NCBI GenBank assembly: GCA_034190875.2
Contig: CM067348.1
Location: 6,623,063-6,687,062, forward strand
Origin: Urechis unicinctus
Taxonomy: Eukaryota; Annelida; Polychaeta; Xenopneusta; Urechidae
Reading direction: 5' to 3'
DNA: 64,000 nt
How positions within the stretch are numbered: the stretch's first letter is position 1; every line of letters starts with the position of its first letter. Positions 6,100 to 16,640 of this stretch are shown here, in pieces. The position numbers were made by a program, and so were the translations under genes. A model generated the notes under the pieces. The model saw only the letters and a list, made by a program, of their open reading frames with translations, was not told the origin of the DNA and ran no database searches.

Positions 6100-6259
6100 A
6101 AAAATATTTGACAATATTAAAGATATATTATTGTCAAATATACACAGCGGAAACAAGCTGCACAGAATCCAGCGTTTGTGCAATTTATTTAAATATTATC
6201 GTGTATGTTAGGCGATTTGCTGCAGTATGGTTTAATGTAAATTATCCAACCAAGTATTA

Positions 6260-6345
6260 TTATTTTTCAATAGAAATGTGGAAACCTGAAAAGTGGAAGA
6301 CCCAAAATTAGATTTGCGATTTGAAATGCAATACCTGTTGATATT
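6260..6345 (+). pseudogene. Decayed relic of the KPEKW exon
   Basis: The sequence gaaatgtggaaacctgaaaagtgga followed by atttgcgatttgaaatgcaatacctg corresponds to both ends of the exon found at 24,253-24,373. About 75 internal bases are missing and the acceptor AG is lost. It shows that the exon existed in the ancestral unit and degenerated here. Confidence 0.6.
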
Positions 6346-9300
6346 CATTTGTTATTTCGAATGAACACGACAATAGCTACTCATACGTTTAATATGCGTT
6401 TCGTTTCCTGCTTAACTTATTCAACAACCAAAACGAGTAGTGCTTGTACCATTAAGTAGTTAAATGTGATGACAAGAAGCTTAATCACACGATGATATAT
6501 TCAAAGGTAATTACCATAGGACATAACCCAAAGACAGGAGGCACAGAAAGTTAGCTTCTTTTTGCTTCACTACATGCACAGAATACTTGATTTATGCGGT
6601 AAAGATATCAAATCTTATGCTTAGGTTTCATTTTATGATAAAGCCAACTTCAGGCATTCATCGAGACGTCTCGTTAACAGGATGGGTTGGTTTTACCGTC
6701 ATTGCCATTCATGATATTCACAGTTAAACACCTACGGCGACATTAGCCAAGCCTCAATTTTTCTTCTAACTTAAAAATTCATTGATTAAATAAAGTCGAC
6801 CCACTCGCTGGGAGCATATGGGTAGAAATTACAATTAGATCAAGCAATTTTTATGCGCAATGTTAATGTTCACCTTTGAGCGATGTGCGGAAATGCCACA
6901 GTCATAGTGATGAATCCCAGTTATTATATTGTACCTATTTCCAACATTTTGCTACTACAGTAATACCTGTATTAACAGATATGTGTGGCACTAAGCTACA
7001 GATACCTAATTTAACAATTGGCGTTATGATGTGCTTTATTGTCCGTGCAAACAATTACCAACCGAAGGCTGCTTTGTTTCTATGTGGTACGATAGCAGAT
7101 GCATGAATCGAAATTAGCAATTGTTGAATCTGCGGCACATAGCCCTTGATGCCATGTTCCTGGTATCACATGTGAATACTACTGCTCGATAGAGTGGTGG
7201 TAATATAGCTGTTGCTTTATACATAAAGCACATGGTGAAATCCGATCGATTGAATCTAATGATTTATCATTTTAACTTCCATTTTGTGGGTGTTAAGCAC
7301 CGCCCTGCCACATTGCCCGTTATATAGGTACAAGAAGTTCTTACTCCGGCACGTTCCTACAAAAGCCGCGTCGTAAATAATACGGTCGTATTGCTTTGGT
7401 TGACGAATGCGTTATAACTTTGTCACCACTCAATTGTGCAATTATCTGATACAATTTTCATTTGTTAAATACTTTAGTTGCGGGAACAGCAATGGTAATG
7501 CTTGTTGTTTATTTAAAACAATTAATTCATGTTTCATTAGATATTACATTACGTTTGCTATTTCGTTTTTCATCAATATGTTAGGTCAAGTTTTGTTCAA
7601 AAGCGGCACACAAACAAATCTGGTATCGTATAAGGATCAGAGGAGTCTGGTGGTTACAGAAGCTGGCCGCAACAGAGAGGAGTTTTTGCCTCTTGAGATT
7701 GGATGCGAAAAATAAACCCCGACGGTCTGGTGGCCACAATGAAATGTTTGGTTGCAAAATAAAGTGGCAATAAATCACATTTTATGTCTGTCAAATGCCA
7801 TTGTCGGTCGTATTGTGCAAGAATAAACCTCATTGCGGATGTTCAAGCCATCCCATACACATTGCAAAAGACTTAAGTTGTCGTTTTAGGGTGATTTATT
7901 CTTTCCTCATTGTGGCATTTCTATTTGTCTTTTAGCTAACTGCACGTGTTATTTCCTCTCACCAGGAGTACATAGCTGGCCAGGAAGCAAACAGGTTTTG
8001 AGATAATGTAACATGCTGCATATGTGGCTCATGATCTGATCCCATGTCGATATCTAGTGAGCTGAATAATCGTTAGATACCATGCGAAGCGCTTCCGGTA
8101 GTGGTGTTCAGAATCTTCTGTCAAATTGCGTGGTATTTTTATGCCCTAAAGCACAACTCATCTGTATCGTGGTATTGGAAGTGGAATACAAAGCCCTATG
8201 ATAATCTAATGCCAATGTCCCATCACTGTGGTAGCTTTAAACGTTTTGCCTAACTATCTTTATCTGTAGTGTCTGATGCCATTTCTAGATATATGAGTAA
8301 ATGTGCTTTTCTTAAATGCCAGCGCCAGGCAAACACAACATATTGGTGATAACACTATTGCCGTCTCAGTTAATCGGTGATGCCACCCTCAACTAACTAT
8401 CCATATCGTTGGAGCTTATTCGACTAATAATATTCAGTTTATCTTACCCTATTTGATTCGTCCGACCTATTCCCAATGGTATAAAAGAGGGCGGACCTCC
8501 TCGCTAAGTGTTCACTCTATTGTAGACTTCTCCCAGTACATCATAGAAAGTTGTCAGTTGGAGCTATTAGAAAATTCTTTGAGTCAAGGATTATTTTATT
8601 TGGACCGTTTCGGATGCCTCAGCAATTCTTATATCTTGGTGGTTTTTTTACAAAGTCACCAAACTGAGAACTTAAGTTCTGTCTGGCGTTCGAATTAATA
8701 ACACGAAACATCTACAGTTTATAGGACTCCATCAGTGCTTGTTACAATAGTGTTGATATTCTTCACAATATATTGTGTTGGTCTTCATCATTCGAGTAGA
8801 CTATCCGATTATGGCAAGATTCTTCAATTTCGCAAGTTCAGAAATGACCTTGACCCCACGATCTTCAATATTCTGGTCCAAAAGAATTGTTTGAGTAACC
8901 AGCTGTCTGCGGCTCACATATGACAGCCACAACAATTATAGAATATTTCGCGTTTACTTATTACTACCCAGAAACTCGATTAGTCATGGTACAACGGTAT
9001 ATTAACTATTACAATATGCTTAATTATTACCCGTTGAGTTTATCCGGGGTCGATATGCCTTCCTCTGCAACCTCACGGGAGTAATGGCTTATCCTGTTTC
9101 AACAATGCAATTAAGAAAATTTATCTGAATGCAAGAAGTGAGAAAGGAATGCTAGTAATATGAATACGTCGGCCATCTGCGTATGTAGTGAGTGCTTCAT
9201 ACAGGTATATTTCAGAATGATTTCTTTGTAAATCTTATCTATGGTGCTATATGGCTTCATACAACAGATCATGCAACTCAGTGCATTCTCTTTAACATCG

Positions 9301-14056: not shown

Positions 14057-15764
14057 GATCATTGTACCAAAGTACCCGTGAAGGCCATTCTAAATCTTGC
14101 CATGGGTGAGCAAGCACATTGAGGACCATTACTTATAGATGGGCACCATTTTTCTGTAAATCTCTCTCGCAATGCTGCTGGTAGGTTGGGTAAGGTTAGA
14201 TTAGCAGTGGGCTTATCGGCAACGAACTCTAGTGTGGTACATGAGGCCTACAAAGGTGGCGGGTGAAATTCGAATACGAAAGGATAACAAGAAATCAAGA
14301 AATTGGTTATTATAATTACTCCTTTTGTTTTTTTATTAAACGAACCGATATTCTTTAAAAATGGTATCATTTAAAATCTGTAATATAATCCAGTGTCCGT
14401 GTCACTAAGCTGGATTAACAATTTCGAACAAATAAACATAAACATAAAAGGAGCGATTGTTTTTTTCAGCCTTTCGCTCGTTAAAACACTTTAATCTCTG
14501 TCACATGCTTATTGAGGATAATCATTTCGATATATTAAAACATTCTTCACAGTTCAATTTGCTATGTTTCTATGTGGGATATTATCGCTTTTTATGAATT
14601 CTATAATGCAACAAAAGACTGCTGTTATGTGTATATTTGATCAGAAATGTCTTTAACCAACCTCTATTTTGGCTGCAAAGCCGAGAGAGCTCTGTTCAAA
14701 ACAAGTAACGCAAGCACCGTCGAGTTTATGCAGGCATATAAACTTTCGTCTGTTATCTGGATACGTTTTTGTGTTGATAAGTCGGCGCTTTTGGTAAATA
14801 GAAAAGCGGGCGAACTAGGGTACAAGATGGGGCTCAAAGCGAAGCTCATTAGATCATGTGGAGATATGTGGGTGTGATGCTCCTGGGCTGGGTGAATGCC
14901 ATTTGTCCATTGTTTTAGAACGGGGACACTTGGAACGTGAACACAGTGGGAAACAGGATACGCACCGAGGGATCGGCTCATCCCTCAGCAGCAATCACCC
15001 CTACGCTACTGTTGAAAGACGTGCGAGGCTCAATAAGGCAATAGGTTTTCTGTGTGAGAAGGATCAGACACCCGCTACCTTAGCATGTTTTGTATTAAAC
15101 AGCCAGGTACACGGACATCCATTTGTGGCCACGAGTGACCAACTTCGTTTGTGTTTTTCGATTTGACATCTAACACATTAGTTGCGCCACAAATCATCCG
15201 GGTGGGGTTTTGTCTCTTCTATTGAGGCATACTATAAGAACGAGACATCCAGTTGATCATGGCAGATAGCAGCAACGGCAATCTGTTCATTTTATGTAGA
15301 GTGTGATTGAGGATCGACTTTTCTCAAAGCATTATATTGATATGCAAGAATTAGTTTGGATGGTAACTAAGACATGATGATGAAAAGGTTGCTTCAGAAG
15401 CCATTGGTTAAACTGCATGTGTCGACATCCTTAGCCAGTTATCCAAGACACAATGAAATACTTAAACCATGAATATGTGCAGATAGGAGGTTCCATTGAA
15501 CTCAGAATGTCCATCCTCAGCAAGAAGGGGGAGTTAGAGTACCAGGCATGGTGATGGTGGTTGACCGATATGCAAGCAGAAGAGTGGACTGCATCTTAAA
15601 CAATACGTTTGCTGCAAGGTTTCATACGCATAATTAGTTGTAAAGCTCGTCCCCTTTTAGCTAAACCGCACAGATTTCATAACATGATACATCCGAGAAA
15701 TTGCATTTGTTATAGCACTCAGCATACAATGAGCCTAGGGTAGTCAGTAACCAGCAGTAACATT

Positions 15765-15990
15765 ATATACATATATATATACATATATATATATATATAT
15801 ATATATATATATAGATGATAGAGATAGATATATATATATATATATATATATATATATATATATATATATATATATATATATATATATATATAATATATAT
15901 CTATATATATATATATATATATATATATATCTATATATATATATATATCTCTATATATATATATATATATATATATCTCATATACATTGA
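15765..15990. repeat. (AT)n microsatellite
   Basis: About 225 bases of TA repeats with occasional TATC interruptions. Confidence 0.96.
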
Positions 15991-16640
15991 TAGAACTACT
16001 AACTATAGATTTGGATACTTTCATATATCCTGACGAGTAAGAGTACCCAGCTGATAACTGTCGGTACCGCTGACCGTCAATGGAACTAATAACCGACTAT
16101 CTTCCCCTTGTAACACATTGTGACTGGCACTGTGCCTGAACAGTTATATTGCCTTTACGTTAGATTGCTAAGAAGATCAGATCTTTCATCATTCAGTGTA
16201 TATACAAATGGTACAGCTCATTTGCACTGTTAGATTTTGTTTACTAATGTATATCCACGTGCATTTCAAACAAAATTAAGAAAGATATTGCGTAATGAAG
16301 TTCACTGTAAATATTATGTCTTCCATGACATACCATGTTTCACACCGATTTCCAACACACCCGGATGCCAAACTTGGTAATATGTGTGCTGGCAGTCTTG
16401 TGAAAGAGAGTGCTGGCATTGTGTATGTGAATTATCGAATAGTCCAATAAAGCACACGTTTATAAGGTGATTGCCAATTTGATGAGAAATACGATAGAAC
16501 GCGGTAAAAAAATTAATTTACCCTGCTTCCTTTGGAAAGAGCACAGCAATCGCTGATGCGCATTATGATGGCCTTGAAAATACTGTGACTCATGAAAACA
16601 GAACTTGATTCTCATACCGTCCATCATAACGCCAAGCAAT

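Follow-up and report, generated by a model that had tools for sequence, protein, structure and literature searches.

Repeated duplication within a restricted region of a chromosome is known from several animal genomes, and three described systems are the closest to the locus considered here, a stretch of 64,000 nucleotides from Urechis unicinctus (contig CM067348.1, here C7, positions 6623063-6687062; hereafter the window) in which three young tandem units, A, B and C, are preceded by a diverged relative, the old copy, at 6141-16627. In the non-syntenic regions of corals, recurrent tandem duplications extend over several megabases and non-allelic homologous recombination (NAHR) has been proposed as their cause (PMC12314368). 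The repeated tandem duplications are attributed there to recombination between similar copies, as we do for the present locus; the coral copies are gene clusters with distinct expression, whereas no coding or RNA signal was found here. In the sea urchin Sp185/333 clusters, GAT repeats lie at the edges of segmental duplications (PMC5103432). The likeness is in segmental duplications rich in short tandem repeats and subject to duplication, deletion and conversion; however, the sea urchin copies carry immune genes, and the microsatellites of our locus lie inside the units. Human segmental duplications undergo interlocus gene conversion (PMC3790853, PMC10172114), and such exchange, acting on similar copies that lie apart, can yield mosaics like the hybrid copy D described below, although the duplications treated in PMC10172114 are of high identity and the two lineages of our family (O and Y) are today about 23% apart. 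We consider it likely that the old copy is one of several O-type copies in a segmental-duplication family that is apparently noncoding, lies, short pieces apart, on a single chromosome-sized contig and has been repeatedly duplicated and recombined.

Results

Homology between the old copy and the young units

With tandem repeats masked, local alignment of 1-20200 against 20201-32600 returned 11 blocks at E<1e-3. Ten of these are collinear, running from 6141/24091 to 16627/28849 (one of the ten, 6312-6433, overlaps another), and the single out-of-order block pairs 7451-7535 with 25456-25541. At 199 bits the top block stands far above both the reversed sequence (34.0) and the highest of 50 dinucleotide shuffles (36.8); a score at the shuffled level was what a preliminary description of the window had named as fatal to the homology. 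Of the matches listed for a control stretch, 50401-63900, a single one, at 79.7 bits, is above 29.7 bits, and its partner, 714-878, is not part of the old copy. The same description expected an offset falling from about 18 kb to 12 kb, and the offsets do fall overall, if unevenly, from 17,371-18,039 in the first blocks to 17,030, then 14,800-14,861, and finally 12,206. Seven anchored segments amount to 2766 columns at 76.9% identity (K80 0.277), a somewhat optimistic figure given the cheap gaps of that alignment. The old copy is thus confirmed as a real, diverged and collinear relative of the nearby young repeats. It is not the fourth copy of the same unit that it had been taken for: its ends differ from those of unit A, the shared span covers 41% of that unit (4.76 of 11.54 kb), and comparison of the flanks (3140-6140 with 21357-24090, and 16628-20250 with 28850-31790) gave scores inside the range of 30 shuffles, with no extension of the homology. 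The features of the window, by window coordinates, are as follows.

6141-16627, plus strand: old copy, an O-type copy homologous to 24091-28849 of unit A (local alignment, trees)
24091-28849, plus strand: Y-type module within unit A, with homology to the old copy
1212-17040, plus strand: window part of a segmental duplication, pieces common to C7:4.728-4.747 Mb at 90-98% (16300-17040 at 82%), compared on either side of 4738704-4742810
9140-17040, plus strand: the same duplication from 9140 on, in common with C7:6.261-6.274 Mb at 93-98% (16300-17040 at 83% by BLAST, 92.6% gap-free)
8752-9828, plus strand: first extra stretch of the old copy, parts in D and four other copies, absent from A, B and C
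10114-13161, plus strand: second extra stretch, first 1.04 kb in D, with microsatellites
13564-16314, plus strand: third extra stretch, pieces in O copies at 4.74 and 6.26 Mb
7312-7705, plus strand: 394 bp with no equivalent at the aligned position of A, one part matching 25456-25541 out of order and another matching D
25297-25866, plus strand: 570-bp stretch of A absent at the aligned place of the old copy, pieces in old copy 7451-7535 and in D
20253-31791, plus strand: young unit A (unit alignment)
31792-42646, plus strand: young unit B, without A positions 24441-24894, by the old copy as outgroup a derived loss
42647-50338, plus strand: young unit C, ending at about A position 28298, the loss of the next module sequence being derived

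A family on one contig and one strand

A search of the genome (1.19 Gb, 926 contigs) with 24091-27380 gave at least 39 matches, 37 of them on C7, all on the plus strand, and two of 71 bp on another contig, C8; with 6141-11000 there were at least 40, of which 38 fall on C7, again all on the plus strand, and two of 81 bp on C8. Grouped by place, the matches resolve into about 14 copies which, short pieces apart, are all on C7 and on one strand.

C7 4.722-4.727, 4.734-4.747, 6.261-6.274 Mb and window 6.629-6.640 Mb, plus strand: O-type copies
C7 4.749-4.753 and 6.276-6.279 Mb, and A, B and C, plus strand: Y-type copies
C7 6.714-6.723 Mb, plus strand: hybrid D
C7 6.451-6.453, 6.502-6.503, 26.360-26.364 and 43.153-43.155 Mb, plus strand: diverged copies

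At three places on C7 an O copy is followed by a Y copy. Smaller traces are a match of 77 bases at C7 9.91 Mb and, 33 kb before the window begins, a weak fragment of 160 bases. A contrast query, 16700-20250, yielded 2885 first-look candidates, and the 39 scored matches besides the window lie on many contigs and both strands. By this comparison the family is neither a high-copy repeat nor the repeat dispersed genome-wide that the preliminary description had weighed as an objection. All 39 of the scored contrast matches are copies, at 94-96%, of a 500-base element at about 17171-17671, which is, judging from these copies, a young, abundant dispersed repeat.

Sisters of the old copy and the flank carried with them

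Trees separate an O clade (the window old copy and its sisters) from a Y clade (the young units and theirs). The O sisters of the window are about 94-98% identical to it and lie 0.37 and 1.9 Mb away (4.72, 4.73 and 6.26 Mb); identity is 97.7% over 3.2 kb with the copy at 4.734 Mb, and 95.0% over 2.0 kb and 97.3% over 2.7 kb with that at 6.261 Mb. The Y sisters of the young units occupy the same places and are roughly 80-90% identical to them. Segmental duplications are usually defined by a length of at least 1 kb, an identity of at least 90% and a sequence that is not a high-copy repeat. The window O copy and its sisters exceed these limits of length and identity, while the old copy and the young units, at 76.9% over 2766 columns, fall below 90% and form an aged duplication.

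The homology with the 4.73-Mb place goes beyond the O copy itself: that place matches the upstream flank in pieces through 1212-6412, and two further pieces upstream of the window, these upstream matches being 90-97% identical and one 99-base piece inverted. Since flank homology is carried through about 5 kb upstream, segmental duplication fits better than transposition. At 4.72-4.74 Mb the O copy is itself in tandem (4722203-4725384 and 4734119-4737353, 95.9% identical), and from the O-Y interval through Y the places at 4.74-4.75 and 6.27-6.28 Mb share pieces that are 92-98% identical. The window O copy differs from that at 6.26 Mb by a K80 of 0.014-0.078 by segment, and window Y from Y at 6.28 Mb by 0.107-0.191; this inequality indicates that the O and Y parts have different histories. 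Within O, 250-column windows of 12511-14544 are 98.4-100% identical to C7:6.265-6.267 Mb, against about 93-98% between O copies elsewhere, which suggests a recent conversion over 0.37 Mb. A seemingly sharp identity break at window position 16300 against 6.26 Mb (92.9 to 83.0% by BLAST) mostly disappeared in the gap-free count (94.4 to 92.6%). In these comparisons, that with 6.26 Mb covered rows with subject starts outside 31791-50340, two of the three tables for 4.73 Mb hold matches of 80% and above, and that of the window with its surroundings covered pairs outside 20000-51000. By its sisters, "old" describes the split between O and Y rather than a lone local fossil.

A hybrid of O and Y

Copy D lies 26 kb past the window end, at 90.6-100.3 kb in window coordinates. 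In the block of A 26859-27143 its K80 is 0.127 to O and 0.298 to A, and in the block 28010-28424 it is 0.131 to A and 0.255 to O. Three-way site patterns reverse in the same way, D agreeing with O at 48 sites and with A at 9 in the first block and at 17 and 58, respectively, in the second (Fisher p=1.2e-12). In midpoint-rooted trees the first block of D groups within the O clade (support 100/99), and its second block lies to the Y side of the branch between O and Y (100/100). By patterns, distances and trees alike, D is an O/Y hybrid. Around it, again in window coordinates and beyond the window, the 5 kb that separate the two parts of D include a hAT dimerisation domain (96116-96523), a DDE_1 transposase fragment (100700-101614) follows just past these parts, and 103020-105704 is a repeat array whose minus strand reads through 895 codons without interruption.

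The extra stretches of the old copy

The three larger stretches by which the old copy exceeds unit A are present as the preliminary description had reported, but it is not right to label all three as insertions, because five further members of the family, namely D and the copies at 6.45, 6.50, 26.36 and 43.15 Mb, contain parts of 8752-9828. All three young units lack this stretch, and almost nothing of it is present in the Y-type copies at 4.75 and 6.28 Mb. The 26.36-Mb copy, which holds it, falls on the Y side in the tree of 25077-25296 (100/100) and weakly so in the other tree (70/76); the copies at 6.45 and 6.50 Mb stand outside the trees. On this distribution, 8752-9828 is best read as ancestral and lost in the Y lineage, unless the 26.36-Mb copy is itself a hybrid. 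From 10114-13161, which holds TC-rich and AT microsatellites, the first 1.04 kb (10114-11151) are common to D and the remainder is found in O copies. Pieces of 13564-16314 are common to the O-type copies at 4.74 and 6.26 Mb, and a 237-base piece matches D out of order. Aligned with the short stretches opposite them in A, 8752-9828 scores 15.0 (shuffles 13.0) and 10114-13161 scores 22.0 (shuffles 20.0), just above the shuffles.

These results bear first on a single ancient local tandem duplication, in which the old copy would be a fossil later broken by three insertions and a descendant copy would recently have been amplified. The common orientation, order and local position agree with it, as does a split older than any among A, B and C, but we regard it as improbable: it is refuted as a complete account by O sisters of about 94-98% identity at 4.72, 4.73 and 6.26 Mb, one of its insertions is best read as ancestral sequence, and D combines O and Y. 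What stands of the earlier proposal is duplication in one orientation at very different times (K80 about 0.28 between O and Y, 0.04 between A and C and <0.01 between A and B), and, with it, recurrent duplication at several ages; what does not stand is a single old tandem duplication represented by a lone fossil, as the O sisters are 0.37 and 1.9 Mb away.

A long, locally inserting transposable element family with O and Y as subfamilies is quite improbable. It would explain about 14 copies, the diverged ones at 26.36 and 43.15 Mb and the internal gaps, and transposon remains do lie nearby (hAT dimerisation, DDE_1, and DUF5641 with a sub-cut-off integrase). Such a family would be expected on many chromosomes and both strands, yet each search gave two short matches off C7 and everything else on one contig and one strand, and the flank (1212-6412) was carried along. 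Five joints, searched for transposon ends, offered nothing convincing: they show direct repeats of 6-10 bases and one 11-base inverted match, scored against no null and in copies too diverged for a strict test. No domain was found in six frames of the module (24000-28897), which would also hold for non-autonomous elements.

Coding and RNA signals

Codon phase between the old copy and A gives no consistent signal over the seven segments; differences are uneven among codon positions in two of them, 25077-25296 (8/70, 16/67, 16/67) and 28521-28849 (23/101, 29/100, 17/101). Gaps are mostly not multiples of three (80 of 98), and the variance of identity across 50-column windows, 6.5 against a binomial 8.9, shows even divergence with no excess. 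Coding exons were considered and rejected, since translated matches appear in all frames and with stops and codon phase is inconsistent, so that the conserved exons of a tandem gene family are not seen. Pfam searches at E up to 1 of the six X-masked frames of 24000-28897 returned no family, nor did those of the six X-masked frames of 8700-13199 and of 16000-20300; as a positive control of the frame scan, DUF5641 was recovered above its cut-off in unit B, with the integrase (rve) there below cut-off. Rfam gave no match at gathering over the whole window, and the 8 and 6 matches at a permissive threshold, examined as candidate structured RNAs, all lie on microsatellites or a tandem repeat. By these signals, the old copy and the module are apparently noncoding DNA decaying neutrally.

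That they are remnants of a tandem gene or noncoding RNA gene family, in which a past or present function keeps the cluster alive, is accordingly very improbable. Same-strand clusters are usual in tandem gene families and two distant copies both retain parts of 25.8-27.1 kb; against this stand the even divergence, the inconsistent codon phase and the Pfam and Rfam results just given.

The mosaic of the young units

The three young units form a mosaic that switches near 22.9 kb and again near 25.5 kb: B is nearest C in the 5' part, A nearest C in the middle and A nearest B in the 3' part. Per 300-column stretch, and microsatellite stretches apart (94.4 and 96.2%, respectively), B and C are 97.7-99.3% identical at 20.3-22.9 kb and A and B 98.9-100% at 25.8-31.8 kb; at 22.9-25.5 kb A and B share 93.4-97.7% and A and C 98.7-100%. 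The old copy had been offered as an outgroup, and it does polarise some changes. Among 42 sites beyond 25.5 kb at which C differs from the other two units, 23 show a derived and 12 an ancestral state in C, with 7 ambiguous; among 17 before 25.5 kb at which B differs, B is derived at 12, ancestral at 2 and ambiguous at 3; all four A-only sites are derived. By this outgroup the 454-bp gap in B and the absent 3' end of C are losses. It is a noisy one, differing at 410 of the 1889 columns in which the three units are identical; closer to them are the Y-type copies at 4.75 and 6.28 Mb. The mosaic fits unequal crossing-over of A-like and C-like copies together with conversion of the middle, in an order of events that we infer. 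Haplotypes laid end to end in the assembly would give the allele-like identities of A/B and B/C, but the low A/B identity at 22.9-25.5 kb beside the high A/C one, and the 23% difference between O and Y, leave such an artefact next to no probability.

Unit B also carries a retrotransposon frame (41095-41937), presumably of a BEL element, that stays open for 281 codons and matches DUF5641 as well as, below its cut-off, an integrase; in unit A the corresponding sequence (30238-31081) is broken into two frames that overlap. Relatives of the integrase frame were found in 2 of 20 stretches of prokaryote genomes, on contigs of bacterial metagenome-assembled genomes, at 47-48%. Further downstream, 56672-57901 is a minisatellite of 34 copies of a 36-base unit.

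Discussion

We propose that an ancestral segment of several kilobases split long ago (K80 about 0.28) into the O and Y lineages, and that pieces with O, Y or both would then have reached other places on C7, all in the same orientation, O becoming tandem at 4.72-4.74 Mb and Y tripling in the window. Sequence exchange between copies, by unequal crossing-over or interlocus gene conversion, would have produced the hybrid D and the mosaic of A, B and C. The family would recombine because similar copies lie near one another, ordinary recombination of this kind being the simplest account; it is most likely passive DNA, and no product was detected.

Several points weigh against this proposal. The genome match counts are lower bounds, and fourteen copies on the same strand are not independent events. 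The unequal O-O and Y-Y divergence requires a separate history of the O part, and the window O-Y interval, 17040-23884, has no match in the 6.27-Mb interval, so the O and Y pair was not simply copied whole into the window. The second and third extra stretches (10114-13161 and 13564-16314) may still be insertions, and empty Pfam and Rfam scans are no proof that a gene or RNA is absent.

Beyond the segmental-duplication family that we favor, there is an outside chance of something more particular, a gene-free, chromosome-specific "duplicon" in one orientation that has been duplicating from a K80 of about 0.3 to <0.01, with copies up to about 1.9 Mb apart perhaps still exchanging sequence, and a long-lived hub kept by some cause other than gene dosage, for example as a source of small RNA or by a structural role.

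Seen from the window only, a member of this family looks like a lone fossil and ancestral sequence looks like an insertion. The wider comparison instead sets out, along a single chromosome, duplications, losses and exchanges that differ in relative age and involve no gene that is evidently selected, which makes the family suitable for asking to what extent a duplication cluster can persist through neutral recombination alone.

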